In this document: piece after piece, positions 27,691 through 42,828 of the stretch | How the letters are laid out: every line of letters begins with the position of its first letter | Position numbering within the stretch: position 1 is the first letter of the stretch | Assembly: GCA_903918755.1 (NCBI GenBank) | Contig: CAIXFN010000096.1 | Span: 1-63,989 of the forward strand | DNA length: 63,989 nucleotides | Origin: an uncultured Pedosphaera sp. | Lineage (GTDB): Bacteria > Verrucomicrobiota > Verrucomicrobiia > Limisphaerales > Pedosphaeraceae | Direction: 5' to 3' | Notes under the pieces: model-generated | Databases searched by the model: none | Told to the model about the DNA's origin: nothing | Seen by the model: only the letters and a program-made list of their open reading frames with translations | Made by a program: the position numbers and the translations under genes

Positions 27691-27718
27691 GGCCCGGGCT
27701 TTGGCCCGGGCCTTTTTT
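27691..27718 (+). terminator. intrinsic terminator after pilin-like gene
   Basis: GGCCCGGGC, loop TTTG, GCCCGGGCC and then TTTTTT: a 9-bp GC stem with a six-T run. Confidence 0.92.
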
Positions 27719-27784: not shown

Positions 27785-28888
27785 ATGACCACCACGGCTC
27801 CCATTCCCATTCCCTGGCGTCAGCGTTGGCGGGACATCCGGCTCCGCTATCTTCCGGCCCTCATTTTTGTGGTCGTAGCGATCTTCTTCGGCGTTCTGTG
27901 GAAAAAGTATGCCGCGGCGCCCACGATTGTGGGGCAGGCCGAAGTGGTGCCGGGCAATATCAGTTCCTCGCGGCCCGGAATGCTGGCGCAATTGTCGGTC
28001 AGTCGATTTCAGGCGGTCAAAGCGGGGGAGGCCATCGGGCAGGTGCTGGTGACGGACCCGAAAATTCTGGCGGCTTCGCTGGCGGTGGTGCAGGCGGAAA
28101 TTGAGCAATTGCGGATCAGTTTGCTGCCGGTGGCCGATGAACAGCGGCTGGCCATGCAATACAACGAAGTGCGGCTGCACTGGATGGCCCAACGGGCGCA
28201 ATTGGGTGTGGCCAAGGCCGATCTCGGGGTGGCGATTTCGGAACTGCACCGGACCGAGGAATTGTACAAGGACAAAATCATTTCGGAGCGGGCGATCGAG
28301 CTGGCGCGAGCGAAGCAAGCCAGCTTGCAAAGCCAGGTGGAAGAACTGGCGCGTTCGGTCGAGGAGCAGGGGCGGAACATCGACAAGTTGCAGTTGACCA
28401 ACGGCGTCAGCATTTCCACAGTATCGGATGCGCCCCTGCGGGCGGCCATTGCGGTGGAGGAATCGAAGTTGAAATTGACGGAGGCCGAAATGAGCCCGGT
28501 GATTTTGCGGGCGGCGGTGGACGGGGTGGTGGATGCCATCCTGCACCGGCCGGGCGAGGCCGTGACGGCCGGGGAGCCGATCGTGACGATATCGCCGGCG
28601 AGCGCGGTGCGGATCATAGGTTATCTGCGGCCGCCGGTATTGGTGGAGCCCAAGGTGGGGAGCCGGGTGGAAGTGCGCACCCGGGGACCGGGGCGTCCGG
28701 GAGGGAGCGCGCAGATCGTGGAACTGGGGATCCAGTTTGAGCCGCTGCCGCTGGCGTTGCAGATTCCAGTGCGGCTGGCGAACACCGAACTGGGGCTGCC
28801 CGTGGCGATTACCGTGCCGCCGGGCTTGAAGATCCGCCCGGGCGAACTGGTCGATTTGACGCTGGCGCCAAGGGGGCCGGGGAACTGA
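27785..28888 (+). CDS. HlyD/MFP-type membrane fusion protein
   Basis: 367 residues from ATG 27785. One N-terminal membrane segment (LPALIFVVVAIFFGVLW) then a periplasmic part: a short biotinyl-lipoyl-like half (AEVVPGNISSSRPGML), a long alpha-hairpin from about residue 95 to 245 (rich in Ala/Gln/Glu/Leu), the second lipoyl half (ILRAAVDGVVDAILHRPGEAV) and a beta-barrel end. Adaptors of this type bridge an inner-membrane exporter and an outer-membrane channel, but no transporter gene is next to it, so its partner is encoded elsewhere. Confidence 0.87.
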   Translation: MTTTAPIPIPWRQRWRDIRLRYLPALIFVVVAIFFGVLWKKYAAAPTIVGQAEVVPGNISSSRPGMLAQLSVSRFQAVKAGEAIGQVLVTDPKILAASLAVVQAEIEQLRISLLPVADEQRLAMQYNEVRLHWMAQRAQLGVAKADLGVAISELHRTEELYKDKIISERAIELARAKQASLQSQVEELARSVEEQGRNIDKLQLTNGVSISTVSDAPLRAAIAVEESKLKLTEAEMSPVILRAAVDGVVDAILHRPGEAVTAGEPIVTISPASAVRIIGYLRPPVLVEPKVGSRVEVRTRGPGRPGGSAQIVELGIQFEPLPLALQIPVRLANTELGLPVAITVPPGLKIRPGELVDLTLAPRGPGN

Positions 28889-29072: not shown

Positions 29073-29714
29073 ATGAATGAATTGACATGTCCGAGCCTGG
29101 GTGAAACCTGGCTTAACCTGGTGCACCTGACCATTACCAACGGCCAGCCGTTGCAGGATGAGGCGGTTGAACTCCTGGAGGCCCGGGTGGGTTTTCCCGC
29201 CCAGACCGAGGGGGACGAATTGATCATGCGTTTTGGCGACCATCGGATGGTCGCCGCGATGGAGCGGGTGTTTTTTGCGGAAGGGGACGGGATGCTGGGT
29301 CATGAGTACGCGAGCCTGATGCGGGGGCCGGAGGGGAGGAAAGATCTGGCGGATGTGATATCCCTCCTGGGGAAGGAACCGTCCAGCAAACGGGCGGTGG
29401 TCACTTTGTGCGGCCAGGGGGGCGGCAAGGTGCCGTGTGTCAACGTAATGCAATTCCTGGTCCGGAGCGACGAGGTGCAGACGATTTACTTTGCGCGCGG
29501 CCAGGATGCCTATAAGAAATTTTACGCGGATGCACTGTGCATCGCCCGGTTGGCCCGCCGGGTCGCCGAGGGAGTGGGGCGGCGGGCGGGAAAAGTGACG
29601 GGATTCATCGGCTCGAGCCACGTTTACAACGCCGATCGTCCGGCGGTGGCGGAGTTTCTATCGCGGGGGCAGTGGTTCCTCCAACATCCCCGGTCGAAGG
29701 CGGTTACCGTATGA
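29073..29714 (+). CDS. thymidylate-synthase-fold enzyme, possible (d)CMP hydroxymethylase/methylase
   Basis: 213 residues, shorter than ThyA (264 in E. coli). ThyA landmarks align in order: Lys106-Arg107 in SSKRAVVTL (the second-subunit Arg pair), nucleophile Cys122 in KVPCVNVMQF, Arg142 and Asp145 in ARGQD (RSxD in ThyA), His183 and Tyr185 in SSHVYNAD. The residue matching E. coli Asn177, which reads the pyrimidine base, is Asp153 (KFYADALCI). That Asn-to-Asp change is what T4 dCMP hydroxymethylase and MilA-type CMP hydroxymethylases show. So a cytosine nucleotide substrate is predicted with methylene-tetrahydrofolate as carbon donor. The N-terminal third is short, so folate binding may be altered. 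First gene of an operon; stop overlaps the next ATG. Confidence 0.8.
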   Translation: MNELTCPSLGETWLNLVHLTITNGQPLQDEAVELLEARVGFPAQTEGDELIMRFGDHRMVAAMERVFFAEGDGMLGHEYASLMRGPEGRKDLADVISLLGKEPSSKRAVVTLCGQGGGKVPCVNVMQFLVRSDEVQTIYFARGQDAYKKFYADALCIARLARRVAEGVGRRAGKVTGFIGSSHVYNADRPAVAEFLSRGQWFLQHPRSKAVTV

Positions 29715-31117
29715 AGGTTTTGTTTGTCGCCCCCCGTTCCTTCAACCCGAAGCAAATGTACCGGGAATACCCGCTGGGAATCGGGTTCCTCGGCACGCTG
29801 TTAAAGCAAGCGGGACATGAGGTGCGGGTGTTTGACCAGAATGTGGAGGGGTTGACGGACGAGGGGCTTTGGGCCTTGGTGCGGGAATTTCAGCCCGATT
29901 TCGCCGGATTCTCGGTGATTACCCCGAATTATCCGGTAGCGCGCCGGCAGATGCACTGGCTCAGGGAGCAGCATCCTGAAGTGCGGATCCTCGCGGGCGG
30001 CATCCATGCCACGCTGTTTCCGGAGGATTTGATCGCGGACGGCGCGGAGGTGGTGGTGATGGGGGAGGGCGAGCCGGTGATCCGGGAATTGGTGAAGGGA
30101 ATGGCCGAAGGGACGGATTTGCGGGGGTTGCCGGGGTTGCTGATTCGGGAGCGGGACGGGGCATTGGTGCGGTCCGGGGGGCGCAGCCAGACGACTTCGT
30201 TGGATGACCTGCCGTTTGTGGACCGGAGCCTGTACAACCTGCCAAAATACACGCATCACTCGATGCTGGCCTCGCGGGGTTGCCCGCATCATTGCGCGTT
30301 TTGCTGCAATTATACCGGGGCCGTACGGAGTGACGGGGTGGGGGTGCGCTGGCACGAGAATGTGGTGGCGGAGATGGAATATTTGCGCGACACCTATGCC
30401 GCGCGGGAGATCTTTTTTGCCGATGACATTTTCCTGCTACGCAAGGCGGACATCCTGAAATTTTGCGAGACCTGCACCAGCCGGCGGGTGGGGGTGAAAT
30501 GGATCGGGCAGATGCGCGCCGACCGGGTGGACACAGCGGTGGCAGAAGCCATGCGGGGGGCGGATTGCCAGCGCATTTATTTTGGCGTGGAATCGGGTTC
30601 AGACCGGATTTTGCAAGCGGCGAAAAAAGGCATCACGACGGCGCAAATCCGCCGCGGGGTGCGGGCGGCGATGGACGCCGGATTGCGGGCGAAAACGGGC
30701 TGGATTTACGGATTGCCGGGGACGCTGGAGGAACAGTACGAGTCCATCCCCTTCATGCTCGACCTGCGACCCCATGAAATCTCCATCCACCAATTGATTC
30801 CGTTTCCGGGGACGATCTACTACACCGAGGCGGCGCGGTTTGGCATCCGGATTGCCAATCCCAAGGGGTTTGAGAGTTTCTGTTACGGCGGATTGGATGG
30901 CGACATCCGGTTTGACTATCTCAGTCACGCGCAACTGCGGGGATTATTTGAGGATACCGCGGTGGCCTTGGAGAAGGCGGGCTATGTCAACAGCGACCGG
31001 GCGCAGCCCGGGGATGAATATATTTACACGACCCCACTTTCCCGCAACTCCATGAACGTCTTTCGTCCACCGGCCGTCGCGGCCACCACAGTTGGGGTGC
31101 CGGAATTGGTCGCATGA
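29711..31117 (+). CDS. cobalamin-binding radical SAM enzyme
   Basis: 468 residues, start ATG overlapping the preceding stop (ATGA). Residues 1-140 form a Rossmann-like B12-binding domain (YPLGIGFLGTLLKQAGHEV, VRILAGGIHATLFPEDL, VVVMGEGE). Residues 180-400 form the radical SAM barrel with the [4Fe-4S] cysteines at 191, 195 and 198 (SRGCPHHCAFCC), and GVESGSDRIL and TGWIYGLPGTLEEQ further on. The C-terminal 60 residues are helical. Enzymes of this class methylate unreactive carbons or do cyclisation/rearrangement; the reaction here is unknown. In an operon of nucleotide enzymes, a nucleotide or nucleoside substrate is likely. Confidence 0.92.
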   Translation: MKVLFVAPRSFNPKQMYREYPLGIGFLGTLLKQAGHEVRVFDQNVEGLTDEGLWALVREFQPDFAGFSVITPNYPVARRQMHWLREQHPEVRILAGGIHATLFPEDLIADGAEVVVMGEGEPVIRELVKGMAEGTDLRGLPGLLIRERDGALVRSGGRSQTTSLDDLPFVDRSLYNLPKYTHHSMLASRGCPHHCAFCCNYTGAVRSDGVGVRWHENVVAEMEYLRDTYAAREIFFADDIFLLRKADILKFCETCTSRRVGVKWIGQMRADRVDTAVAEAMRGADCQRIYFGVESGSDRILQAAKKGITTAQIRRGVRAAMDAGLRAKTGWIYGLPGTLEEQYESIPFMLDLRPHEISIHQLIPFPGTIYYTEAARFGIRIANPKGFESFCYGGLDGDIRFDYLSHAQLRGLFEDTAVALEKAGYVNSDRAQPGDEYIYTTPLSRNSMNVFRPPAVAATTVGVPELVA

Positions 31118-31839
31118 AGGCCGAAGCCGCCGCGGAGCGATATTGCCGGGTATTACAGCCGCTCGATTTGCCGGATTTCGCGGTGCGCGATGTGGCCCGC
31201 CCTCTGGTGGTGGCATTGGAAGGACCGAACGGGGTCGGGAAATCCACCCTAGCGGCCCGGCTCGCACAGGAGTTAGGGTCGCCGCAATGTTTGGGAACAG
31301 ATCCGGCCTGGTTTAGCGAGGCTTTTAAAACGCGGATGATCCGGGATGCGGACTGGTTCGCTTCGGCAATGTTTTTTCTCAGCGGTTGCTGCGAACAAAT
31401 GCGCGTGCTCCGGGGGCGGAGCGAGCCTTTGATCATCATGGACCGTAGTCTGTGGTCCACCCTGGCGGTGCATGCCGCGGAACGACCGGAGCGGCTGGCG
31501 GCGGTGCTGGGGATGTTGACGCCGGTGGCCGGGGAGATCGCGGTGCCCGACCTGACCTTGGTGCTCGATGCCGAATTTGCGACCTGCCAAACCCGGATTG
31601 CCCGGAAGGCGGGCATGGCGCGGCAATTGGATGAGTTGACGGCCACCACCACGTTTCACGCGCGAGAACGAGGCTTCTACCAATGGCTGGCCGGGCGACG
31701 TCCGGAAATCCAGTTTTTGGACGTCAATGAGTTAAGTCCGGAATTGGTGGTAGCGGCAGCGGTGGCCCGGGTACGGAACGGGCGTGAGGCGGTGGCCGGG
31801 AGGGATTCGTCGCGTCCTGCGAAAGGCCTGGGATGTTGA
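31114..31839 (+). CDS. thymidylate-kinase-like P-loop nucleotide kinase
   Basis: 241 residues; ATG overlaps the preceding stop. After about 30 extra N-terminal residues comes VVALEGPNGVGKSTLAARL, a Walker A (GPNGVGKST, 37-45) of the thymidylate/deoxynucleoside kinase type, and IIMDRSLWSTLAVHA, the DR(S/Y) motif that holds the nucleotide phosphate in thymidylate kinases. LTLVLDAEFATCQTRIARK resembles the LID-proximal strand/helix. A C-terminal tail is disordered-looking. It should phosphorylate a nucleoside or nucleoside monophosphate; given gene 1, a modified pyrimidine is a fair guess. It is not a normal housekeeping Tmk, being divergent and embedded in this operon. Confidence 0.85.
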   Translation: MKAEAAAERYCRVLQPLDLPDFAVRDVARPLVVALEGPNGVGKSTLAARLAQELGSPQCLGTDPAWFSEAFKTRMIRDADWFASAMFFLSGCCEQMRVLRGRSEPLIIMDRSLWSTLAVHAAERPERLAAVLGMLTPVAGEIAVPDLTLVLDAEFATCQTRIARKAGMARQLDELTATTTFHARERGFYQWLAGRRPEIQFLDVNELSPELVVAAAVARVRNGREAVAGRDSSRPAKGLGC

Positions 31840-33080
31840 CGCTGGTTACTTCGAATCCCGCAAAATACGCACCCTTTCAAGGGACATTGGACCGGTATCA
31901 AGTGGTGCTGGAAGCGCCAGGGGAAGCGCTGCCGGAAGTTCAGAGTCTGGATTTTCGGGAAACGCTGACCGCAAAGGCACGGGCGGCGGCCGCCCGGTTT
32001 GGACGGCCGGTGTTGGTGGATGACACCGGACTCGTGCTGGGCGCATACCCGCAGTTTCCCGGACCGCTCACGGCGACCGTGTTGCGCAGCCTCGGGGTCG
32101 AGGGCTTGCGACGGCTCCTGAAAGGGACGAGCGATCGGGCGGTGATGGAGTGTCACCTAGGTTGCTGGGTGGACGGGGAGTTGCGCCATTGGCAGGGGAG
32201 AGTGCCGGGGCGATTGGATTTAGCACGGACACCCCGGAACCCACGGATGCTGCTCTCCGATCTTTTTCTGCCCGACGAGACGCCCGGGACGGTGGACCAG
32301 GCGGGCGAATTGGAGGGTGGGGCGCGCTTGCGCCACCGGGAGGAGGCTTTGGCAGCACTCGGAACGGACATATTCGGGTTACACCTGGCCTTGGCGCCCA
32401 AGGAGGGGATGGCATGCGGGGGCAACGGACTGCGCCAGAGCCATGATTGCCCCTTCTGCCATGAATTGGCGGAGGATGGGGGCAGCATTTTTGCCGGGAT
32501 GATGGCGGGGCGGCTGACCTCGCGGATTGTTTATGAGGATGAGCATTTTATCGTCATGCCGCCCTTGGGACAATTCATGGTGGGGGGACTGCTCGTGTTG
32601 ACCCGGCGCCATGTCCTTTCCCTGGCCCACCTGTCGCCGGAATTGTTGATCCACTTGGAACGACTGGTGGGAGCCATCCGCCGGGTATTGTGGGAGCGGT
32701 GGGGGGTATCGCCGCTCGTGTTTGAGCATGGGCCGGCGCCGGAATGGAGCAAGGGCGTTTGCTGCGTGGATCACGCGCATCTCAATATTTTTCCGGCGGC
32801 GGTGCCGGTACACCCCAGCCTGGCGGCCCGGATGCACCTGCCCATCCAGTCACTCACGGAGTTGGAGCGGCTTCGGTCGGCGGAGTTTGGCTACTTGTTC
32901 GTGCAGGAGAACGATGGCGCCCGCCGGATTTACGATGGCCGGGACGTGCCCACGCAATTAGTGCGCCGCGTAATTACCACGCAATTGGGGATGCCCGAGC
33001 GCTGGCATTGGCGGGACTACCCGGGGCGGGAGGAATTGCTGGCGACTTACGCCGCCTTGAAAGATCAGATTCGTTTATGA
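31833..33080 (+). CDS. fusion of HAM1/ITPA-type NTP pyrophosphatase and HIT-domain protein
   Basis: 415 residues, start overlapping the kinase gene by 7 bases. Residues 1-190 match the HAM1 (ITPA/RdgB) family: TLVTSNPAKY at the start, VDDTGLVLGAYPQFPGPLTA (60-81), and QGRVPGRL. This family hydrolyses non-standard NTPs to NMP and pyrophosphate. Residues 200-415 form a HIT-type domain with a CPFC pair (206-209), TRRHVLSLAHLSPE and DHAHLNIF; the HxHxH triad reads His314-x-His316-x-Asn318, so the nucleophile-position His is kept but the third His is Asn. HIT proteins are nucleotide hydrolases or transferases. The fusion suggests sequential handling of one nucleotide. Confidence 0.85.
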   Translation: MLTLVTSNPAKYAPFQGTLDRYQVVLEAPGEALPEVQSLDFRETLTAKARAAAARFGRPVLVDDTGLVLGAYPQFPGPLTATVLRSLGVEGLRRLLKGTSDRAVMECHLGCWVDGELRHWQGRVPGRLDLARTPRNPRMLLSDLFLPDETPGTVDQAGELEGGARLRHREEALAALGTDIFGLHLALAPKEGMACGGNGLRQSHDCPFCHELAEDGGSIFAGMMAGRLTSRIVYEDEHFIVMPPLGQFMVGGLLVLTRRHVLSLAHLSPELLIHLERLVGAIRRVLWERWGVSPLVFEHGPAPEWSKGVCCVDHAHLNIFPAAVPVHPSLAARMHLPIQSLTELERLRSAEFGYLFVQENDGARRIYDGRDVPTQLVRRVITTQLGMPERWHWRDYPGREELLATYAALKDQIRL

Positions 33081-33754
33081 GTGGGACGCGCCCTGCGGCC
33101 GCTCACGCGTCCACGGTGTATGAACGGCGCGAGTTGGCGGCCATTGCCGCGCGCTGGGATGCACGGGCGGATTCCTGGGAGGAAGCATTGCAGGATCCCG
33201 ACTGTCATTTGCAGGAGGGCGAGGCTTATCTAAAATTTGAGCGACTGCTCAAGCGCTGCGTCGCGGGTCGGCGGGAGTTTTGCGCCGGTAATGGGGTGAT
33301 CGATGCCGGCTGCGGGACGGGACTGGTCCTGGCGGGAGTGATTGAGCGCTTCGCGTGGGGCATGGGGGTGGATATCAGTCCCGGGATGATAGCGGTGGCT
33401 CGAAGGAAGCAGTTGCCCAAGGCGACCTGGGTGGTGGGGGATTGCTTTCAACTGAAAAGGCTGGAGAGGCCGGCGGGGGTGGTAGTCTCGCGCGGGGTGC
33501 TGCTATCGCACTATGGAGAGGAGGGTGGTTTGGAATTCCTGCGGGCCGCGCACGAGGTATTGGTTCCGACGGGGTTCCTGGTCACCGATTTTCTGAATGC
33601 CGAGGCGCGAACCACCGCCCGGCATGCTCCGGGAGACAAGCACTGGTTCACGAAACTTGAAATTCAGAGTCTGGCGCGAGCGGCGGGTTTTTCGCAAGTG
33701 GTCATTCGTGGTCGGGTGGCAGACCGGGTGCATCAGGTGATCGCAGAGGCCTGA
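33077..33754 (+). CDS. class I SAM-dependent methyltransferase
   Basis: 225 residues, ATGA overlap with the preceding gene. Motif I NGVIDAGCGTGLVLAGV, an acidic loop WGMGVDISPGMIAVARR, motif around WVVGDCF and VVSRGVLLSHYG place it among small-molecule methyltransferases (Methyltransf_11/25-like). Substrate cannot be read. As the last gene of the five-gene overlapping set it may finish or cap a modified nucleoside. Confidence 0.88.
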   Translation: MSGTRPAAAHASTVYERRELAAIAARWDARADSWEEALQDPDCHLQEGEAYLKFERLLKRCVAGRREFCAGNGVIDAGCGTGLVLAGVIERFAWGMGVDISPGMIAVARRKQLPKATWVVGDCFQLKRLERPAGVVVSRGVLLSHYGEEGGLEFLRAAHEVLVPTGFLVTDFLNAEARTTARHAPGDKHWFTKLEIQSLARAAGFSQVVIRGRVADRVHQVIAEA

Positions 33755-33847
33755 AATTCGACCATTTGGGTCGCAATTGCCTTGACGTGTGGTCACACAA
33801 TTGTCACATTTCTCCACCATAAGCATGCAAACCGGCTGGCAACTGAC
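33755..33847 (+). promoter_or_regulatory. possible promoter region of the pyruvate-kinase-like operon
   Basis: TTGACG at 33782-33787 and the weak CACATT at 33805-33810, 17 bases apart, plus the palindromic GTGTGGTCACAC (33787-33798 region) between them. This gap is the first real break after five overlapping genes, so a new transcription unit probably begins here. Confidence 0.3.
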
Positions 33848-34975
33848 ATGACATCATTCGTACCCGCGAGAGAACCCGCACTTTCGTCCTCCCCATTCGA
33901 AAAAACCGCCCCGCAATCGTGGAAAGTGCCGGAAATCATGGCCACTCTGGGGCCGACGCTCGAAAAACCTGAGGATTTGGCGCGGGCCATCGATGCCGGG
34001 GTGCGCTGGGTCCGTTTGCCTTGTGGTTACCGCCAACGACCACACCTGGATAATGCGCGGGTGGCCCGAGCGGCGGGCGCGGAGAGTGGCCGTCCCCTGC
34101 AATTGTTAATGGACCTGCCATCTTCCCGTCCCCGCACGGGAACCATGGAGGAGTTGAAGCTGAGCGTGGGGGACAAGGTGGTGTTTTGGGATCCGGAAGC
34201 CGACTTGGAAGGGCCGCACAAAAATGGGTCGATGCCGGTACCGTTGCCGGGGTTGCGAGAATTGCTGTCCAAGTTGGCACCGCAACACCGCATGTGGTTT
34301 TGCGATGGCAGGCTCAATTTCATGGTGGATGAATTGCAGGATGACGGCCTGGTTTCCGCGCATTTGCTGGAAGGCACGATTCCGCTCAAATCCTCGAATT
34401 CGCTCTTTCTGCCGGATTCCAGCAGTGGATTTTCCGCGATTACGCCGCCGGACCGGGAATTACTGGGTGCCTTTGCCGCGGCCGGAATTGTGCCGGACTG
34501 GGTGGCGTTATCCTTGATTGCGACACCCGAGGATGTGGTGGAAAGCCGGGCGGCAATCCGGGAGATTTTTGGAAAAGACGTCCGGATGATGGCCAAATTT
34601 GAAACGGTAGCCGCGTTTGAGCGTCGGGAGGCGATCATCGCGGTGGCTGACGGGACGATGGTGGCCCGGGGAGATCTCGGGCTTGCCGTGGGTTACGCGG
34701 AATTGCCGGGAGTGCAGGATGAACTGGTGGCGGCGACGCGGCGGGCCGGCAAACCAGTCGTGGTCGCCACCCAGATTTTGGAAACCTATGCCGCCACGGG
34801 GATTCCCCAAAGAGCGGAACTTTCCGACTTGTCCCTGATTGCCCGGCAGCGGGCCGATGTCATCATGCTCGGCAAGGAGACCGTGTTCAGTCCCCGGCCG
34901 TTGGACTGCATCCGGCTGGCGCGCGAGGTGCTAACGCGGGAGACGCGCCGGTTCGAGCAAGCCTATGGGACATAG
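33848..34975 (+). CDS. pyruvate-kinase-like protein lacking the C-terminal domain
   Basis: 375 residues from ATG 33848 (pyruvate kinases are about 470). The catalytic barrel is recognisable: AGVRWVRLPCGYR matches the substrate-binding loop that normally reads RxNFSHG, a B-domain-like part follows (CDGRLNFMVDEL, LKSSNSLFLPD), then Lys250-x-Glu252 (MAKFETV) and VARGDLGLAV with Asp276, VVVATQILETYA, and RAELSDLSLIA. So phosphate-transfer Lys and metal ligands remain, but Asn and Ser/His of the K+/substrate loop are replaced and the allosteric C-domain is missing. Either a divergent pyruvate kinase or an enzyme for another enol-phosphate. Overlaps the VTC gene, so co-translated with it. Confidence 0.82.
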   Translation: MTSFVPAREPALSSSPFEKTAPQSWKVPEIMATLGPTLEKPEDLARAIDAGVRWVRLPCGYRQRPHLDNARVARAAGAESGRPLQLLMDLPSSRPRTGTMEELKLSVGDKVVFWDPEADLEGPHKNGSMPVPLPGLRELLSKLAPQHRMWFCDGRLNFMVDELQDDGLVSAHLLEGTIPLKSSNSLFLPDSSSGFSAITPPDRELLGAFAAAGIVPDWVALSLIATPEDVVESRAAIREIFGKDVRMMAKFETVAAFERREAIIAVADGTMVARGDLGLAVGYAELPGVQDELVAATRRAGKPVVVATQILETYAATGIPQRAELSDLSLIARQRADVIMLGKETVFSPRPLDCIRLAREVLTRETRRFEQAYGT

Positions 34976-35774
34976 CGCCCGGTTTGAACTGAAATACGTG
35001 GTCGAGGCGGAACGGGCCGTGGCGGTGGCGGATTTCGTGTCCAGCTACCTGCGGCCTTCGGAGCATAACGGTAACGGTCCCATCCGGGGGCATCCGGTGA
35101 TCAGCCTGTATATGGACACGCCGGATTACTTTTTCTTCCGGCAGGCATACAACGGGCACAAAAACCGGATGAAACTGCGCATCCGGTTTTATGATGACGA
35201 GTGGAAACGTCCGGCGTTCCTGGAGGTGAAACGCCGGGTTAGTGAGGTCATTTGCAAAGACCGGGCGATGATTTCGCGGGAAGGGGTGAGGCAAATTTTA
35301 AGTCGCGGCTGGCCGGACCAACCTTTTTGGAGCGATGGCACACACCTGGCGCATGGCAAGCGGCGTCTGGATGTGAATGACGATTTTTGGGGGTTCGCCA
35401 ATGCGACGCGCGCCAACGGGGCGATCTACGTCTCCTATTACCGGGAGATTTACGAATCCGAGCACGACGAGGAGTTGCGGGTGACTTTCGACCGTTACAT
35501 CCACGGGAGCCGGTATGACGGGAGCGGACGGTTGGCGGTTCCGAAGCGCGGCTGGCGACCCTTTTTGCCGCCCTACCTGGCGCCCTTTCCCGAAGACGGA
35601 GTGATTTTGGAGCTGAAGTTCGACAACCAAGCCCCCCGGTGGATGTTTGATCTGGTGAAAATCTTCAACCTTCGGCAGACTCCGGTTTGCAAGTACGCGG
35701 CATGTATCTACGCGCAGAATCTCCAATGGCACCGCAAAGTGCTGCCGGAGCAGGATCTTGAGTTGGTGCTATGA
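34965..35774 (+). CDS. VTC-domain protein (polyphosphate polymerase family)
   Basis: 269 residues, start inside the end of the preceding gene. RFELKYVVEAERAVAVADFV at the N-terminus, SLYMDTPDYFFFRQA, RMKLRIRFYDDEW, FLEVKRRVSEVICKDRAMI, and ILELKFDNQAPRWMFDLV show the alternating basic and acidic strands of the VTC triphosphate-tunnel domain. Eukaryotic Vtc4 makes polyphosphate from ATP; bacterial members sit beside DUF4956 proteins, as here. No membrane helix of its own. Role in polyphosphate or other phosphoryl polymer is inferred. Confidence 0.88.
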   Translation: MGHSARFELKYVVEAERAVAVADFVSSYLRPSEHNGNGPIRGHPVISLYMDTPDYFFFRQAYNGHKNRMKLRIRFYDDEWKRPAFLEVKRRVSEVICKDRAMISREGVRQILSRGWPDQPFWSDGTHLAHGKRRLDVNDDFWGFANATRANGAIYVSYYREIYESEHDEELRVTFDRYIHGSRYDGSGRLAVPKRGWRPFLPPYLAPFPEDGVILELKFDNQAPRWMFDLVKIFNLRQTPVCKYAACIYAQNLQWHRKVLPEQDLELVL

Positions 35775-36478
35775 ACGACTTTATCAATTTAATTGAGCAT
35801 TCGGATTTAACCCGTTCCGTCTGGCCGGGGAACCCGGATCCGTTGATCGTGCTGCTGATCATCGTGCTGGCCTTTGCCGCGGGGATGTTCATCGGATTCG
35901 TGTACATGTGGACCCACGATGCGCTTTCCTATTCCCGCTCGTTTGTCAGTGCGCTGGCCATCATGCCGCTTATCATTGCGATGTTGATGTTGTCGATGGC
36001 GGGGAACGTGTTCGTGGCATTCGGTCTTCTGGGAGTGTTTGGGGTCGTCCGCTTCCGCAATGTATTGAAAGACACGCGGGATACCGTCTTCATCCTGTGG
36101 GCGGTGATGGAAGGGGTGTCCATCGGGACGACGCGCTTCTCCACCGGGGCGCTGGGGGCGCTGGGCATTTCCGCGGCACTGCTGTGCCTGCGGTTCATGG
36201 CGTTCGGGACCCGGCAACGTTACGATGCCGTTCTGAACCTGCGGCTGACCGGGGATGTGCCGGCCCGAGTGGCCACTTTGAAAGCAATTTTGCAACGGCA
36301 CGCCAAGCGGCTGGATCTGGCGAGCGAGCGGCGCTCCACCAATGAGGGGACGGACATGTCCTATCGCATCTTGTTGCGGGACACCGACCGCGCCAGCGAA
36401 CTGCAGGCGGAACTGGCCGGGGCGGAAGGATTCGCGAACGTAAATCTGTACATGCACGACGACGAGGCGGAAATCTGA
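35771..36478 (+). CDS. DUF4956 membrane protein
   Basis: 235 residues, ATGA overlap with the VTC gene. Four hydrophobic segments (PLIVLLIIVLAFAAGMFIGF, FVSALAIMPLIIAMLMLSMA, VFVAFGLLGVFGVVRFRNVL, GALGALGISAALLCLRFM) and a cytosolic C-terminal ACT-like part (MSYRILLRDTDRASELQAEL). FGVVRFRNVLKDTRDT is the family's conserved loop. Almost always next to a VTC-domain gene; probably its membrane anchor or the channel through which the polymer passes. A strong terminator follows. Confidence 0.88.
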   Translation: MNDFINLIEHSDLTRSVWPGNPDPLIVLLIIVLAFAAGMFIGFVYMWTHDALSYSRSFVSALAIMPLIIAMLMLSMAGNVFVAFGLLGVFGVVRFRNVLKDTRDTVFILWAVMEGVSIGTTRFSTGALGALGISAALLCLRFMAFGTRQRYDAVLNLRLTGDVPARVATLKAILQRHAKRLDLASERRSTNEGTDMSYRILLRDTDRASELQAELAGAEGFANVNLYMHDDEAEI

Positions 36479-36516
36479 CCCCCGACCTGCCGCTTCGTCG
36501 GATAGTTTGCGTTCGC

Positions 36517-36552
36517 GCCGCCGCCCTACGGGGCGGCGGCGTCGTCGTTTTT
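36517..36552 (+). terminator. intrinsic terminator after DUF4956 gene
   Basis: GCCGCCGCCC, loop TACG, GGGCGGCGGC: a perfect 10-bp stem with a UACG-like tetraloop, then GTCGTCGTTTTT. Confidence 0.92.
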
Positions 36553-36773: not shown

Positions 36774-37796
36774 ATGGAATCGAAATTGAAAAAACGAAAC
36801 GAAAATCCGGAAACGTTGGCGGAGGCGGGGAAGCCGCCGCGCTCCCGGGGGGCGGGCATTATGGTTTCGCTGGCGCAATGGGTGGACGCGGATTACGGCA
36901 CGACCGATTTGGCGGCGATCCGGGCCAAGCCGGACCGGGTCGAGTGGGTGCGCACCCTGCCATTTCTTTTACTGCATGGCGGGTGCCTGGGGGTGATTTG
37001 GGTTGGGTGGAGTTGGCCCGCGGTGGCGGTGGCAGTGGGGATGTATCTTGTGCGCATGTTTGCCATCACTGGTTTTTACCACCGCTACTTTTCGCACCGC
37101 ACCTTTCAAACCTCGCGGGTGGCGCAGTTCGTTTTTGCGCTGATGGGGGCGTCCGCGGTGCAGCGTGGTCCCCTTTGGTGGGCCAGCCAGCACCGGCACC
37201 ATCACCAGCATGCGGACGAAGAGGCGGATGTCCACTCCCCCTGTCGGCGCGGCTTTTGGTGGTCGCATATCGGTTGGATTACCAGCGCGCGTAATTTTCC
37301 AACGGCATATGCGCGCGTGCGTGATCTGGCCAAATTTCCCGAGTTGGTTTTCATCAACCGATTCGATTCGCTGGTGCCGGTGGTGCTGGCGATCGTCTTG
37401 TTTTTAGGCGGGAATATTTTGCATTCCTTCCGGCCCGCTTGGGGCGTCACAGGGGGGCAGCTTTTGGTCTGGGGCTTTTTTATCAGCACGACCGCCCTTT
37501 TTCATGCGACCTCGAGCATCAACTCCATGGCGCATCTCTTCGGGAGTCGACGGTACGAAACGGCGGATAACAGCCGGAACAGCCTGCTGCTGGCGCTCAT
37601 CACCCTGGGGGAGGGATGGCACAACAATCATCACCGGCACATGAGTGCCGTCCGGCAGGGGTTTTTCTGGTGGGAAATCGACATTTCCTACTACGTCCTC
37701 AAGGGGTTGTCCTGGACGGGGGTGATTTGGGATTTACGACCAGTACCGCGGACGGCTTATGGCGAACCCGTCACCGCCGGAGCAGGTCCGGATTAA
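36774..37796 (+). CDS. acyl-CoA/acyl-lipid delta-9-type fatty acid desaturase
   Basis: 340 residues, inner membrane. The three histidine boxes of the di-iron desaturases are present: HRYFSHRTF (HxxxxH), HRHHHQHAD (HxxHH) and HNNHHRHMS (HxxHH), with hydrophobic segments between (LPFLLLHGGCLGVIWVGW, VAQFVFALMGASAVQ, SLVPVVLAIVLFLGGNIL). Introduces a double bond in fatty acyl chains using O2. First gene of an operon of lipid-modifying enzymes; its product, an unsaturated chain, is the substrate class of the cyclopropane synthases further on. Confidence 0.93.
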   Translation: MESKLKKRNENPETLAEAGKPPRSRGAGIMVSLAQWVDADYGTTDLAAIRAKPDRVEWVRTLPFLLLHGGCLGVIWVGWSWPAVAVAVGMYLVRMFAITGFYHRYFSHRTFQTSRVAQFVFALMGASAVQRGPLWWASQHRHHHQHADEEADVHSPCRRGFWWSHIGWITSARNFPTAYARVRDLAKFPELVFINRFDSLVPVVLAIVLFLGGNILHSFRPAWGVTGGQLLVWGFFISTTALFHATSSINSMAHLFGSRRYETADNSRNSLLLALITLGEGWHNNHHRHMSAVRQGFFWWEIDISYYVLKGLSWTGVIWDLRPVPRTAYGEPVTAGAGPD

Positions 37797-37815
37797 GCAG
37801 GCGCGGCCAATTTTC

Positions 37816-39081
37816 GTGTCAAAACTAGCCATCATCGGAACGGGAATCGCGGGATTGGGTTGCGCTTATTTGCTACGCTCCCGGTTCGACCTGACCCTGT
37901 ACGAGCGGAATGATTATTTGGGCGGCCATACCAATACGATTGGCTTGGCGGAAGGGCAGGAAAAGGTCGTTATGGACACCGGATTCATGGTGTACAATGA
38001 AGTGACTTATCCGAACCTGACCCGACTGTTCCGGGAATTGGGGGTGGTTACCAAACCCACCGCGATGTCGTTTAGCGTTCAGCACCGGGGGACGGGTTTG
38101 GAATTTTCGGGTTCCAGCCTGAATCATTTGTTTGCGCAACGGCGGAATTTGCTCCGGCCGCGGTTTTGGGGCATGATCCGGCAAATCAACCGGTTCAACA
38201 CGGAGGCGGTGGCGGCGTTGAATTTACCGCAGTATCAAACTATGAGCTTGGGCGAATACGTCCAGGAGCGGAATTATGGCGCGGATTTCTGGCATTTTTA
38301 CCTCGTCCCGATGAGCTCCGCGGTCTGGTCCACGCCGCCCGATTTGATGCGGGAATTTCCGGCGGTGACGCTGCTGCGGTTTTTCCACAACCATGGCTTC
38401 CTGGGGTTGCACACCCAGCATCCGTGGCGGACGGTCGACGGGGGGGCTAAGCGGTATGTGGAGAAACTGCAGGCAGGTATGCCGGGCCCCGTGCGGTTGC
38501 GCCCAGGGGTAAAGAGCGTGCGGCGGGAAGGTGGCCAGGTGCAGGTTACGGACGCCGGCGGGGAAAGTCAGGCGTTTGACCAGGTGATCCTGGCCTGTCA
38601 TGCGGACGAGGCGCTGCGGTTGCTCGGGGACGCGGATGCCGAGGAGCGCCGGGTTTTGGGCGAGTTCAAGTATCAGAGCAACCTGATCACGGTGCATACG
38701 GATGCTGCGGTGATGCCCCGGCACCGGCTTTGCTGGTCCTCCTGGAACTACCGCATGGAAAACGATGCGGCGGGACGGATAGTGCCATCAACGATTTACT
38801 GGATGAATTCGCTGCAAGGTGTTTCCGAACGGCAGAATTACTTTGTCTCCGTGAACGGGGAAAATTCGATGCATCCAGACAGTGTGCGGCGGCGTATCCA
38901 ATACGAACACCCGTTGTTCAGTCGGGGCGCAATCCGGGCCCAGGCCGAGTTGCCCGGGCTCAATGCGCGGCGGACAGGGGTCTATTTTTGCGGTAGTTAT
39001 TTCCGTTATGGATTTCATGAGGACGCGTTCACGTCGGCGTTGGATCTGGCGCGACTCCTGGGGAAGGCCGTGTGGAATTGA
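37816..39081 (+). CDS. FAD-dependent oxidoreductase (amine-oxidase-like)
   Basis: 421 residues from GTG 37816, so that the dinucleotide-binding motif LAIIGTGIAGLGCAYLL stands at the N-terminus; an ATG at 37759 would overlap the desaturase gene by 38 bases. YERNDYLGGHTNTI is the FAD ribose segment. VVMDTGFMVYNEVTYPNL and YFCGSYFRYGFHEDAFTSAL are conserved in the subfamily that travels with DUF1365 and cyclopropane-synthase genes. The likely substrate is a modified acyl chain; one member class desaturates methylated chains on the way to furan fatty acids, but that identity is not shown here. Confidence 0.88.
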   Translation: MSKLAIIGTGIAGLGCAYLLRSRFDLTLYERNDYLGGHTNTIGLAEGQEKVVMDTGFMVYNEVTYPNLTRLFRELGVVTKPTAMSFSVQHRGTGLEFSGSSLNHLFAQRRNLLRPRFWGMIRQINRFNTEAVAALNLPQYQTMSLGEYVQERNYGADFWHFYLVPMSSAVWSTPPDLMREFPAVTLLRFFHNHGFLGLHTQHPWRTVDGGAKRYVEKLQAGMPGPVRLRPGVKSVRREGGQVQVTDAGGESQAFDQVILACHADEALRLLGDADAEERRVLGEFKYQSNLITVHTDAAVMPRHRLCWSSWNYRMENDAAGRIVPSTIYWMNSLQGVSERQNYFVSVNGENSMHPDSVRRRIQYEHPLFSRGAIRAQAELPGLNARRTGVYFCGSYFRYGFHEDAFTSALDLARLLGKAVWN

Positions 39082-39881
39082 CCTCCTGTATTTATGAATG
39101 CACGGTGATGCATCACCGGTTGGCGCCGCGGGAGCATCATTTTGAACACGGGATATTCATGCTTTATCTCGATTTGGACGAGTTGGATGAGGTTGTCAGC
39201 GGGTTGCACCTTTTCAGCCGGAACCGGGCCAATGTTTACAGTTTTCGCGACCGCGACCACCTGCCCACCGGGGGGGGGGGCACATTGAAGGCCAACGTGG
39301 TGAATTACCTTAAGGAACACGGAATTGATTGGGATTCGCGGGGCCGGATCAAACTGCTCACGTTGCCGCGGGTGCTGGGATATCTCTTCAATCCTGTCTC
39401 GTTTTATTTTTGTTTTGATGCGGCGGGCCAGCCGGTCTGCGCCATCGCGGAGGTGGGGAACACCTTCGGAGAAATGAAGCTATACCTGCTGGAGCAACCC
39501 GTTCAGGCCGGCGGCGGGAGTTTTCGTAAGGTGATACCGAAGCACTTTTATGTCTCACCGTTTTCGAGCCTGGAATGGAATTTTGATTTTATATTATGTC
39601 CCCCCGGTGAAACGATGCGCCAGCAGGTGGATGACCGCGACGGCGAAGACCGGGTGTTGGTGACGACACTGACGGGAAAACGGGCGGAACTGACCAATCG
39701 CAATCTCTACTGGTTTACGTTGAAATATCCCATGGTGACCATGAAAGTCATTTTTTTGATTCATTGGCAAGCCCTGCGGCTTTATTGGAAGCGGGTGCCT
39801 TTTCACCGCAAGGCGGCTAATCCGAACTTGCAAACCGGTGTCTTGCACCCGCATGCCAGCCTGACGGGAGGGGGCAAGTGA
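39072..39881 (+). CDS. DUF1365 protein with an 11-G run
   Basis: 269 residues from GTG 39072, overlapping the preceding gene by 10 bases. YECTVMHHRLAPREHHFEHG, LGYLFNPVSFYFCFD and AIAEVGNTFGEMKLYLL are family hallmarks (NPVSFYFC, EVxNTxGE). Function unknown, always linked with FAD oxidoreductase and cyclopropane synthase. A run of eleven G (39270-39280) encodes GlyGlyGlyGly at about residue 67-70; slippage there would shift the frame and stop the protein early. Stop overlaps the next start. Confidence 0.9.
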   Translation: MELTSCIYECTVMHHRLAPREHHFEHGIFMLYLDLDELDEVVSGLHLFSRNRANVYSFRDRDHLPTGGGGTLKANVVNYLKEHGIDWDSRGRIKLLTLPRVLGYLFNPVSFYFCFDAAGQPVCAIAEVGNTFGEMKLYLLEQPVQAGGGSFRKVIPKHFYVSPFSSLEWNFDFILCPPGETMRQQVDDRDGEDRVLVTTLTGKRAELTNRNLYWFTLKYPMVTMKVIFLIHWQALRLYWKRVPFHRKAANPNLQTGVLHPHASLTGGGK

Positions 39882-41167
39882 ATCCGCCCGCCACCGCCGG
39901 ACTCAAGCGGACGATGAGCGAACCCATTCGCCGCACAAGCTCATTTTATGAGCGCGCCGTGCTGGACGCGTTGCAACAAATGACCCGGGGTTGCCTGCAA
40001 CTCGAGTTGCCGGATGGCTTCCGGTACGTGTTGGGGCAAACCGACGCTACCGAACGGGCAAGCGTGCGCATCGTGCGGCCGGATTTCTTCAAAAGGTGCG
40101 TTTTGTACGGCGACGTTGGTTTTGGCGAAGCATACGTGGAGGGCGACTGGGAGACGCCGGATATCACGGCGGTGATCGCCTGGTTCATTCTGAATGTGGA
40201 GAATTCACCGGGAATGTCCGGGTCGCGGAGTCGCCGGATCGCGCTCAATTTGCTGGGCTGGTATAATCGGATCCAACACCTCTTGCGTCCCAACAGCCTG
40301 GACACGAGCAAGCGCAACATTGCGGAGCACTATGATCTGGGGAATGACTTTTATCGTTTATTCCTCGACCCGACCATGACCTATTCCGCAGCGGATTTTG
40401 CCGCGCCCGGAATCACGCTGGAGCAGGCGCAGATTGCCAAATATGACCGGCTGTGTCGGCAACTGCGACTGCGGCCGGGCGAGCACGTGTTGGAAATCGG
40501 TAGCGGGTGGGGCGGCTTCAGCCGGCATGCGGCGACGCAATACGGTTGCGAAGTGACCACCATCACCATTTCCCAGGCGCAATTCGAGTATGCGCAGCAG
40601 TTGTTCCAGCGGGAGGGCCTCGCGGACCAGGTGCACCCTAAATTGATGGATTACCGTTTGTTGACGGGGCGGTATGACAAAATAGTTTCCATCGAGATGC
40701 TGGAAGCCGTGGGGGATGCCTATCTGGAGACCTATTTCGGCAAGTGTCAGCAACTGTTGAAACCGGAGGGATTGCTGGCTTTACAAATGATCACGTGTCC
40801 GGATGCGCGCTACAGCGTCATGCGCCGTGGGGTGGATTGGATTCAGAAGCACATTTTTCCTGGTTCGCTGCTCCTGTCGATCAACCGCGTGAACCAGGCC
40901 ATCAGTCGCACGGGCGACCTGATGCTGCATGATTTGCACGACTTGGGATTGGATTATGCGGAAACGCTCCGCCGTTGGCGGCAGGAGTTTAACCGCAATG
41001 GGGCGGAAGTGGCGGCTTTGGGATTCGATGAACGTTTCCGCCGGAAGTGGAATTATTACCTGTCCTATTGTGAAGCGGCCTTCGCGCGGCGCAACATCAG
41101 CGTGGTGCAGGCGATTTACACCCGGGCCAACAATCCAACCCTGATGGCTTCGAGGGGCGATTCATGA
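39878..41167 (+). CDS. cyclopropane-fatty-acid synthase family methyltransferase
   Basis: 429 residues from a GTG overlapping the previous stop (an ATG at 39914 is the alternative). The N-terminal 120 residues form the lipid-binding part (GDVGFGEAYVEGDWETPD); NIAEHYDLGNDFYRLFLDPTMTYS is the classical block, and HVLEIGSGWGGFSRHAATQYG is the SAM motif I. MISIEMLEAVG-like IVSIEMLEAVGDAYLE carries the catalytic-region Glu. Transfers a methyl(ene) group from SAM to an unsaturated acyl chain in the membrane, making a cyclopropane or methyl branch. Middle gene of the lipid operon. Confidence 0.93.
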   Translation: MNPPATAGLKRTMSEPIRRTSSFYERAVLDALQQMTRGCLQLELPDGFRYVLGQTDATERASVRIVRPDFFKRCVLYGDVGFGEAYVEGDWETPDITAVIAWFILNVENSPGMSGSRSRRIALNLLGWYNRIQHLLRPNSLDTSKRNIAEHYDLGNDFYRLFLDPTMTYSAADFAAPGITLEQAQIAKYDRLCRQLRLRPGEHVLEIGSGWGGFSRHAATQYGCEVTTITISQAQFEYAQQLFQREGLADQVHPKLMDYRLLTGRYDKIVSIEMLEAVGDAYLETYFGKCQQLLKPEGLLALQMITCPDARYSVMRRGVDWIQKHIFPGSLLLSINRVNQAISRTGDLMLHDLHDLGLDYAETLRRWRQEFNRNGAEVAALGFDERFRRKWNYYLSYCEAAFARRNISVVQAIYTRANNPTLMASRGDS

Positions 41168-41505
41168 TCTGGTTTTTGCGGGTTGCCTTCAGTGTGGTAG
41201 TCGCAACAATGCTGGCCGTTACGGGTTGGGCGAGTTTCCAGGTGCCGTTGTGGGAGACCCCAAGGGCGGTGGTGACGCATCCCTGGTTCATTGCCACGCT
41301 CTTTGATTGCTATTTCGGGTTCCTCACTTTTTATGTCTGGCTGGCCTACCGCGAAACCAAACTGTGGGTGCGGATTGCCTGGCTGGCGGCGATCCTTCTG
41401 TTGGGTAACATCGCCATGGCGGGTTATGTGCTCAGTGTGGTCTGGCGGGTGCCAGCCAATACTCCGATCGAAAACATCCTGCTCCGGCGGAGGAGCCGTG
41501 GGTGA
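41164..41505 (+). CDS. DUF1475 small membrane protein
   Basis: 113 residues, ATGA overlap with the synthase gene. Three hydrophobic segments: FLRVAFSVVVATMLAVTGWA, PWFIATLFDCYFGFLTFYVWLAY and IAWLAAILLLGNIAMAGYVL; PWFIATLFDCYFGF and the GNIA segment match DUF1475, a family also found in plants. Role unknown. Overlaps the next start by 8 bases. Confidence 0.8.
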   Translation: MIWFLRVAFSVVVATMLAVTGWASFQVPLWETPRAVVTHPWFIATLFDCYFGFLTFYVWLAYRETKLWVRIAWLAAILLLGNIAMAGYVLSVVWRVPANTPIENILLRRRSRG

Positions 41506-42031
41506 TTTTCGTCCGTCGCCGCGGCCGGTGCCCGAGCCCACCACACGCGTGCGACCCCTGCGCTGGCAACGCCATATCCGCGACCCCATCTTCGCGCAAT
41601 TACGGCAAGGGATAACGCCCGAGAAAATCGCCCTAACTCTGGCGGTGGGGCTGGCTTTGGCCGTATTTCCGCTCTTGGGAAGCACTACTTTGCTTTGCTT
41701 CCTGGCCGGGTGGTGGCTGCGGCTCAACCAACCCGTGATTCAACTGGTGAACTGGCTGGCGTATCCCCTCCAACTCTTGTGCCTCCCGGGTTTCGTGCGA
41801 TTCGGCGAATTCCTGGCGCAAGCGCGACGGGTGCCTTTCTCCGTGCCCCAATTGATGGCGGAATTTCGCGCGTCGCCGGGCAAGTTTTTGCAGGATTTCG
41901 GCCTGACCGGTTTGCATGGTATCGTGGGCTGGTTGGTGGTGGCGCCGGCCTTGGGAATCCTCCTCTATTTTGGCCTGTTGCCCGTACTGCGCCGAGCGCA
42001 GCGAATGACCACGCCGCTGCCCGCCGCATGA
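41498..42031 (+). CDS. DUF2062 membrane protein
   Basis: 177 residues from GTG 41498, with GGAGGA just upstream; the longer frame reads through the previous gene out of phase. GITPEKIALTLAVGLALAVFPLLGS and LNQPVIQLVNWLAYPLQLL are DUF2062 features; two or three hydrophobic segments. Function unknown. ATGA overlap with the next gene. Confidence 0.82.
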   Translation: MGDFRPSPRPVPEPTTRVRPLRWQRHIRDPIFAQLRQGITPEKIALTLAVGLALAVFPLLGSTTLLCFLAGWWLRLNQPVIQLVNWLAYPLQLLCLPGFVRFGEFLAQARRVPFSVPQLMAEFRASPGKFLQDFGLTGLHGIVGWLVVAPALGILLYFGLLPVLRRAQRMTTPLPAA

Positions 42032-42816
42032 ATGAACTACTGAAATGGTTGTTGGTGGGCTGGGGATTCGCCGCCGGCATGATGCTGTTTGTGTGGTTGC
42101 TCAGCCGCCGATTGAATAACGCCGGGATTGTGGATATTGCCTGGTCGGCGGGATTTGCGCCGGTCGCGGTGCTATATGGATTGGGAGCGGGCGGTTGGGG
42201 GCCGCGGCGATGGCTGATCGGTGGCATGGTCGTGCTGTGGAGCACCCGTTTGGGATGGTATCTTTATGTCCGGGTCATAGGCCATCACCCGGTGGAGGAC
42301 CGACGGTATGCCGCTTTGCGGGCGGAGTGGGGGCGGGAGGTTGACCGGAAGATGTTCGGTTTTTTCCAACTGCAAGGGGCTCTCTTGGTGGTCCTCTCGG
42401 TGCCGTTCCTGTTGGCCAGCCGGAATCCATCACCGGGCTTTAGCGCGTGGGAGTGGCTGGGCGGCGGAGTTTGGTTGGTGGCCTGGATTGGGGAGAGTCT
42501 GGCCGACCGGCAGCTCCAGAAATACAAGGCGAACCCAGCCAATCGCGGTGGAGTTTGCCAGGTGGGTTTGTGGCGCTATTCGCGGCATCCGAATTATTTT
42601 TTTGAGTGGCTGATCTGGGTGGCGTTTTTTCTTTTTGCGCTGGGCTCGAGCGGCGGCTGGATCACGGTTTACTGTCCGGCGTTGATGCTTTATTTCCTGG
42701 TGCGGGTCACCGGGATTCCCATGACAGAAGAACTGGCGGTGAAAACAAAAGGGGACCGGTATCGCGAATATCAGCGCACAACGAGCGGATTTGTGCCATG
42801 GTTTCCCCGGCCGTGA
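42028..42816 (+). CDS. DUF1295 (steroid 5-alpha-reductase-like) membrane protein
   Basis: 262 residues with about seven hydrophobic segments. VDIAWSAGFAPVAVLYGLG near the N-terminus and LWRYSRHPNYFFEWLIWVAFF plus KGDRYREYQRTTSGFVPWFP at the C-terminus match DUF1295, relatives of NADPH-dependent lipid reductases and isoprenylcysteine methyltransferases. Might reduce a double bond in a modified acyl chain. Seventh gene of the lipid operon. Confidence 0.9.
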   Translation: MNELLKWLLVGWGFAAGMMLFVWLLSRRLNNAGIVDIAWSAGFAPVAVLYGLGAGGWGPRRWLIGGMVVLWSTRLGWYLYVRVIGHHPVEDRRYAALRAEWGREVDRKMFGFFQLQGALLVVLSVPFLLASRNPSPGFSAWEWLGGGVWLVAWIGESLADRQLQKYKANPANRGGVCQVGLWRYSRHPNYFFEWLIWVAFFLFALGSSGGWITVYCPALMLYFLVRVTGIPMTEELAVKTKGDRYREYQRTTSGFVPWFPRP

Positions 42817-42828
42817 GGCCAAGCGACT

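Follow-up and report, generated by a model that had tools for sequence, protein, structure and literature searches.

The stretch analysed here (the window, 63,989 nucleotides of contig CAIXFN010000096.1 from an uncultured Pedosphaera sp.) carries five overlapping genes at positions 29,073-33,754 of the plus strand. They encode a thymidylate-synthase-like (TS-like) protein, a radical S-adenosylmethionine (SAM) enzyme, a kinase, a HAM1-HIT fusion and a methyltransferase, and are followed by genes for a pyruvate-kinase-like (PK-like) protein, a VTC-domain protein and a DUF4956 membrane protein. This conserved and rare gene set probably makes an altered RNA-type building block. The fuller reading, to which we give roughly even chances, is that the genes form a pathway devoted to a modified pyrimidine ribonucleotide and that this pathway is linked with a polyphosphate-type module of the envelope.

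The five-gene operon

The five genes are spaced by -4, -4, -7 and -4 bases (overlaps of 4, 4, 7 and 4), and all start with ATG. Gene 1 (29,073-29,714, 213 aa) encodes a TS-fold protein like the cytidine monophosphate (CMP) 5-hydroxymethylases, as judged by Pfam, a profile run against solved structures, residue mapping and a predicted model. It is followed by a cobalamin-binding radical SAM enzyme with C191, C195 and C198 (29,711-31,117, 468 aa; Pfam, NCBIfam), a thymidylate-kinase-like P-loop kinase (31,114-31,839, 241 aa; Pfam, solved relatives), a protein that joins a HAM1 domain of the nucleoside triphosphate (NTP) pyrophosphatase-like kind (residues 2-176) to a HIT domain (about 205-320), with an extension at its C terminus (31,833-33,080), and a class I SAM methyltransferase (33,077-33,754, 225 aa; Pfam). 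The coordinates, families and overlaps given by the initial annotation of this DNA were reproduced, and the architecture for joint expression and the nucleotide theme that it had proposed were borne out.

PF00303 (Thymidylat_synt, 1.4e-8) was the sole Pfam match of gene 1 at E values up to 1. With a four-member profile, the best solved structures were two MilA chains (9e-13 and 1e-12); thymidylate synthases followed from 1.1e-6, the AfhB-type structures 9iqc and 9iqu at 9.5e-5 and 9.6e-5, and T4 dCMP hydroxymethylase at about 3e-4. K106, C122, D153, H183 and Y185 of gene 1 correspond to MilA K133, C155, D186, H216 and Y218 (5jnh numbering). The MilA study attributes the preference for ribose to Lys133 and Ala176, treats Asp186 as the mark of a cytosine substrate, and describes Cys155, Glu68, His216 and Tyr218 as residues conserved for their part in catalysis or in binding ribose (PMC5175136). 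Among the aligned TS-like copies there was no variation at the catalytic Cys or at the substrate residues, D153 included. Gene 1 shares with the CMP 5-hydroxymethylases MilA (mildiomycin) and BcmA (bacimethrin) the TS fold, the catalytic Cys, the ribose-binding His and Tyr, the ribose-preference Lys and the cytosine Asp; unlike MilA it is shorter and has Gly at the Ala176 position. By these MilA-type residues a modified ribonucleotide looks likelier than a modified deoxynucleoside triphosphate (dNTP).

The AlphaFold model of gene 1 reached a predicted local distance difference test score (pLDDT) of only 61. In a Foldseek search with this model the best 50 of 816 rows were all thymidylate synthases or dihydrofolate reductase-thymidylate synthases (best 9e-5), and structural comparison with thymidylate synthase (VIA) gave Z 8.5 over 164 residues at a root mean square deviation of 4.8. 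A better match outside the TS family was sought and none was found, Pfam giving TS only, followed by MilA and TS structures and these Foldseek rows; the initial analogy to MilA and BcmA held, with MilA as the best solved relative and its diagnostic residues shared.

Five genomes carry the operon: that of the window (G000), G001 of the same genus, G085, G015 and G648. A role of gene 1 as thymidylate synthase proper was rejected, since canonical thyA lies elsewhere in four of the five (G000, G001, G085 and G648) and the scores are far under the NCBIfam cut-offs for thymidylate synthase. A second, partial TS match (profile positions 213-265 only) was seen in G085 (C172, 43,503-43,661), 1.3 kb past the full thyA.

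The radical SAM gene matched B12-binding (2.8e-21) and Radical_SAM (6.4e-18) in Pfam. Its product fell under the cut-off of all 25 of 35 NCBIfam families listed (top BchE, 151 bits vs 481); its relatives include BchE, HpnJ and enzymes of ribosomally synthesized and post-translationally modified peptides (RiPPs), and among proteins of solved structure AprD4, 9ccb, CysS and OxsB come closest to it in sequence. The kinase matched AAA_33 and Thymidylate_kin (1.3e-8 for the latter), and the solved structures nearest to it belong to thymidylate kinases (about 1e-7). Both proteins matched the PADLOC pair PDC-M51A/B, the radical SAM enzyme at 1.1e-9 (M51A, residues 168-381, which is the radical SAM core only) and the kinase at 6.2e-14; the TS-like, HAM1-HIT and methyltransferase proteins had no match to the PDC-M51 models. 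By name, PDC-M51 returned nothing from open-licence PubMed Central (PMC) literature. The methyltransferase matched Methyltransf_25 (4.3e-14), with sugar N-methyltransferases among its matches.

The HAM1 half of the fusion matched Ham1p_like (4.7e-17), and KomB is among its solved relatives (3.2e-10). This domain shows no variation at its N-P-x-K, D-D-x-G and H-R positions, and M-L-L-S stands where ITPA and PH1917 have the base motif F-G-W/Y-D (alignment read by eye), so the base pocket appears to be altered. The HIT half stayed below the Pfam cut-off (DcpS_C, E 0.048) but matched solved HIT proteins (1y23, 6e-5), and it aligns with plasmid HIT proteins of three bacterial groups, with H-x-H and C-terminal Q, R and W in common. 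The predicted model of the fusion was poor (pLDDT 51). Self-protection by the HAM1 domain is possible.

Distribution and the linked PK-like, VTC and DUF4956 genes

Searches for the TS-like protein covered 97 relatives and, with a profile, 320 genomes from the order. Full-length copies were found in 5 of the 320, namely the five operon genomes; seven genomes passed 1e-8, and G009 and G644 (6-8e-9) were excluded from the count as ordinary TS on score and partial coverage. Eight passed in the 97 relatives, where G038, G009, G080 and G048 were likewise set aside. Searches with the five window proteins (tblastn) recovered all five genes in identical order on one strand in G001, G085, G015 and G648, so that linkage in relatives, on which the initial annotation had made its case depend, was present in 5/5 genomes carrying them. 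Identity to the window proteins ranged from 86% (radical SAM, G001) down to 49% (methyltransferase, G648). For the eight genes of the set, compared between the window and G001, nonsynonymous divergence (dN, 0.06-0.48) was well below synonymous divergence (dS, 1.3-2.4, near saturation). Because the same genes occur in the same order in four other genomes and dN is well below dS, the set goes beyond chance.

Wider searches returned few relatives. At 1e-20 the HAM1-HIT profile matched only the window in a 387-genome sample of the phylum, and a scan of genome contigs with two peptide motifs gave 39 stretches, of which three were relatives, all of Verrucomicrobia type. No relative of the kinase was found in plasmid records. 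Motif scans of viral contigs (TS, HAM1-HIT, kinase) and tblastn of phage records (TS and kinase, 1e-3) returned no phage or viral relatives, though distant ones could escape such searches. The parallel to phage hypermodification systems drawn at first was not supported in these limited searches, and a phage origin was rejected, with the proviso that motif scans might miss distant viral relatives.

The boundary first set at 33,754 proved too narrow, as three further plus-strand genes follow and co-occur with the five: a PK-like barrel protein (33,848-34,975; PF00224, 5.7e-39), a VTC-domain protein of the polyphosphate polymerase family belonging to a divergent clade (34,965-35,774; PF09359, 1.2e-29) and a DUF4956 membrane protein (35,771-36,478; PF16316, 3.3e-8). 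At E values up to 1e-60 the PK-like protein was present in 5/320 genomes of the order, the same five that have the full-length TS-like gene. The VTC clade was found in six of the 320, these five and G647. The PK-VTC-DUF4956 block of G085 lies on another contig than the five genes, which argues that the co-occurrence of the TS-like gene with PK-VTC does not come from adjacency alone.

PF00224 scores in the operon genomes were 225-390 bits for ordinary pyruvate kinases and 130-150 bits for the PK-like proteins. The latter keep K226, E228, D252, T284 and R32 (alignment A9 numbering); we take the Lys-Glu-Asp-Thr set to be the residues for phosphoenolpyruvate (PEP) and Mg, and the R-L-N-F-S-H segment to be a feature of pyruvate kinase. 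The protein is called PK-like rather than pyruvate kinase because the Asn and Ser of this segment are lost and only the barrel domain was found (Pfam).

The VTC domain scored 103.9 bits against a cut-off of 23. K10, K66, K70, R72, R74, K89, K98, R100, R160, E216 and K243 were invariant in 10 aligned rows, and we assume a catalytic role for these basic residues and the Glu. A single-sequence search of this protein against solved structures gave no match. Operon-linked VTC proteins are 79-91% identical to the window's copy inside the clade and 33-35% identical to five generic copies (up to 41% in another comparison); the DUF4956 protein shares 68-86% identity with its counterparts in the four remaining operon genomes. 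VTC at 1e-20 was present in 40/58 genomes of the order, and VTC, DUF4956 and HlyD genes were consecutive in all five regions L070-L074, an ordinary module elsewhere in the order. The window's genes resemble this common module in their families and in the conserved VTC basic residues, and differ from it by the divergent VTC, the added PK-like gene and an HlyD gene that is split off.

In G647 the clade is represented by a 406-aa single frame (contig C278, 5.4 kb; L058, 1,782-2,960), which joins VTC (28-246) to DUF4956 (60-235). No PK-like or five-gene match was found on this 5.4-kb contig. The frame may have been left over from a larger set, may reflect faulty assembly or may be a fusion that works. 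G647 also carries a generic VTC-DUF4956-HlyD module (L074).

Boundaries, neighbouring genes and plasmid HIT relatives

An HlyD-family membrane-fusion protein is encoded at 27,785-28,888 (plus strand; HlyD_3, 9.5e-9). Its gene adjoins the TS-like gene in the window and in G001, is on the same contig in G648 and on other contigs in G015 and G085; L075 (G015) and L076 (G085) hold HlyD without VTC. The span from HlyD to DUF4956 is bracketed by the two strongest plus-strand terminator-like hairpins, one 5' of the HlyD gene (27,691-27,712; 9 G-C pairs, T tail) and one 3' of the DUF4956 gene (36,515-36,542; 12 pairs, 11 of them G-C, T tail). Both are patterns only, and 15 such sites were observed where 10.4 (standard deviation 3.9) were expected. 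The PK-like open reading frame (ORF) opens at a TTG at 33,782, and 33,848 is the first ATG before the conserved part; the PK-like and VTC genes share an 11-base overlap. The region from 27.7 to 36.5 kb may be a single transcription unit. A promoter scan gave 3 sites against 2.4 in shuffles, and no Rfam family reached its gathering score in 27-37 kb. An outer-membrane efflux gene lies beside DUF4956 in G648.

Immediately 3' of the DUF4956 gene, a lipid-modification cluster occupies 36,774-43,863 (fatty acid desaturase, amine-oxidase-like FAD enzyme, DUF1365, cyclopropane-fatty-acid-synthase-like gene, DUF1295 and a second CMAS-like gene). A large minus-strand ORF (1021 aa) was noted at 60,441-63,506.

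The plasmid search gave a HIT-type match in six records, four of which were examined (L025-L028). In a Parabacteroides distasonis plasmid (L026, 4,361-9,647) the HIT gene stands in a row with genes for a ThyX-family protein of 539 aa, an AAA ATPase, PRA-PH and DHFR, a second pyrimidine/HIT set of different make-up. Two Streptomyces plasmids (L025 and L027, 4.4-10.7 kb) have a row of a 181-aa gene (dCTP-deaminase-like in L025), HIT, an unknown gene and cysteine desulfurase, with NTP pyrophosphohydrolase, methyltransferase and LysR genes nearby. Rhizobium leguminosarum pRL1 (L028, 1,599-11,341) carries thymidylate kinase, PRPP-synthase-like, SDR, PfkB, cysteine desulfurase and HIT genes together with Glycos_transf_3 (pyrimidine-phosphorylase/TrpD-like), methyltransferase and PhyH-type ORFs, some of these names coming from ORF reading. 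This unannotated cluster looks like a nucleoside-type biosynthetic cluster in its own right.

Proposed pathway and alternatives

The reactions proposed here, their order, the product and its use are suggested by the protein families. The TS-like enzyme would put a one-carbon group on C5 of CMP, giving hydroxymethyl-CMP or a close relative. Tailoring of the nucleotide would fall to the B12-radical SAM enzyme and the methyltransferase, through methylation at carbon or an alteration of ring or sugar, and through methylation at O or N. Phosphorylation to the diphosphate would be the task of the thymidylate-kinase-like enzyme, and the PK-like protein would add the third phosphate, with PEP as donor. 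The divergent VTC protein and the envelope module of DUF4956 (and HlyD) may consume this triphosphate or work together with it. HAM1-HIT would strip pyrophosphate and split nucleotide adducts, which would allow recycling of the product or spare the cell harm. In favour of the pathway stand the constant order of the five genes in five genomes, the MilA-like profile match and residues of gene 1, the separate thyA in four genomes, the changed base motif of the HAM1 domain, the nucleotide-related genes beside the plasmid HIT relatives, and the PK-like and VTC-clade genes that accompany the operon, even unlinked in G085. Of the interpretation in the initial annotation, the operon, the nucleotide theme and the MilA/BcmA analogy stand; phage relatives (in limited searches) and a glycosidase-type gene among the nine genes were not found, and a ribonucleotide looks likelier than the dNTP.

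Several observations weigh against this pathway. With 213 aa the gene 1 protein is short, and the Pfam profile, 266 positions long, is matched only up to position 226; the alignment with MilA leaves out the first 66 residues, so the counterpart of MilA Glu68 was not placed, and G143, at MilA A176, is small but is Gly, not Ala. No canonical ThyA was found in G015, which has the operon copy alone (ThyX was not searched). In the PK-like protein the Asn and Ser of the RLNFSHG segment are replaced by Pro and Gly, and phosphorylation of nucleoside diphosphates (NDPs) by it is a guess, since these usual first-loop residues are lost though the PEP/Mg residues are kept. The gap between the methyltransferase and PK-like genes is 93 bases, or 27 with the TTG start; given this gap and the different contigs in G085, the five-gene block and PK-VTC-DUF4956 could be separate units. 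HlyD was rejected as an operon-specific part, with a homologue at 1e-50 in 101/320 genomes, and the outer-membrane gene of G648 is not counted in the unit because it had no match in the window, L011, L012 or L054-L056. Neither TS-like nor PK-like protein was found in the G647 genome (87% complete) at the thresholds used, and if its VTC-DUF4956 fusion works, the VTC clade is independent of the other genes. The sample is five related genomes, small and phylogenetically tied (two of the same genus, two of the same family). Functions are predicted here from sequence, and families of these kinds are often recruited to other chemistry.

Known gene clusters offer partial precedents. The thmA-C genes of Photorhabdus form a three-gene 4'-thiothymidine cluster in which the NTPase gives resistance (PMC12691670). 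Compared by gene families, they share with the operon an adjacent radical SAM, kinase and NTPase core for a nucleotide analogue, and as described there they are without TS-like, methyltransferase, HIT, PK-like and VTC genes; by this analogy thmA-C is the closest precedent for the core logic. The Streptomyces albus bacimethrin cluster and putative Microcystis clusters likewise place TS beside a nucleotide kinase, with a radical SAM gene in S. albus and HisIE in Microcystis (PMC12345177). They have ABC transporters, an oxidoreductase or reductase and, in Microcystis, ThiD2, and the figure legend of that source does not name HAM1-HIT, PK-like or VTC genes for them (PMC12345177). No description of the present gene set was found in open-licence PMC literature.

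Some weight, though clearly a minority of our confidence, goes to the reading that a toxic nucleoside is produced and released by the five genes, with HAM1 as self-resistance and PK-VTC-DUF4956 as a mere neighbour. The working thmA-C cluster, whose NTPase alone confers resistance (PMC12691670), is consistent with it, as are the matches of both the radical SAM enzyme and the kinase to PDC-M51A/B, the patchy distribution (5/320 genomes) and the VTC clade of G647 without the five genes. Against it, no exporter or phosphatase specific to the five genes was seen, and the PK-like gene is in exactly the five-gene genomes, even unlinked in G085, as a mere neighbour need not be. The nine genes scanned with Pfam hold no glycosidase-type domain of the sort that releases the base in the mildiomycin and bacimethrin pathways. 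PF05014, which we take to be the family of the N-glycosidase MilB, was absent genome-wide from G000, G001, G085 and G648 and present once in G015, on another contig. A change in the first step alone is unlikely: gene 1 would be an AfhB-type flavin-dependent (d)CMP hydroxylase performing 5-hydroxylation, and the rest would proceed as in the proposed pathway. For this alternative, AfhB-type structures tied with TS in the structural comparison (Z 8.4 and 8.3), and 9iqc and 9iqu, which are among the sequence matches, have a comparably small size (238 and 234 aa). Against it, the sequence of MilA is far closer, with five of six mapped positions in common and the sixth changed from Ala to Gly.

That the operon is an anti-phage or stress system, making a modified nucleotide on demand that halts viral polymerases or signals, seems quite improbable. 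Viperin and Kongming are models for nucleotide-based anti-phage action, and Kongming uses a HAM1-like protein with deaminase and SIR2 partners. The presence of KomB among the HAM1 relatives and the match of radical SAM enzyme and kinase to one PADLOC candidate defence pair point this way; the radical SAM match is restricted to residues 168-381, the nine genes scanned with Pfam include neither an effector such as SIR2 or a nuclease nor a deaminase or SIR2 partner of the Kongming kind. Very unlikely, too, are substrates such as a lipid, sugar or cofactor linked to a nucleotide, or a part for these enzymes in modifying RNA, with the TS-like protein as a repurposed binder. The BchE, HpnJ and RiPP relatives of the B12-radical SAM enzyme and the sugar N-methyltransferases matched by the methyltransferase would fit such a role; the invariant catalytic Cys and substrate residues of the TS-like copies argue against it, and the kinase and HAM1-HIT are likewise nucleotide families.

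Within the proposed ribonucleotide pathway, a more specific use is conceivable but improbable, namely as an orthogonal energy currency, in which the divergent VTC polymerase would take its phosphoryl groups from a donor of its own, the modified pyrimidine NTP. The PK-like protein would recharge the modified NDP from PEP, and HAM1-HIT would destroy stray copies. A private donor would account for the presence of the PK-VTC block in every genome with the five genes, even unlinked; the shortened G647 fusion would be a remnant under this idea, and a counter-example if the fusion works. If true, envelope polyphosphate synthesis would be uncoupled from the ATP pool. The gene set may be a variant of the nucleoside-analogue kind of pathway, and such use of VTC would possibly be categorically new.

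If the pathway is right, a new C5-modified ribonucleotide would come from a pathway that opens like those of nucleoside antibiotics but is connected with a recharging protein of PEP type and a polymerase of polyphosphate type, and a modified nucleotide would thereby have gained a novel use. The presence of the TS-like and PK-like genes in the same 5/320 genomes gives a functional handle on the VTC-DUF4956 modules that are common in the order, one clade of which goes with a specific nucleotide pathway.

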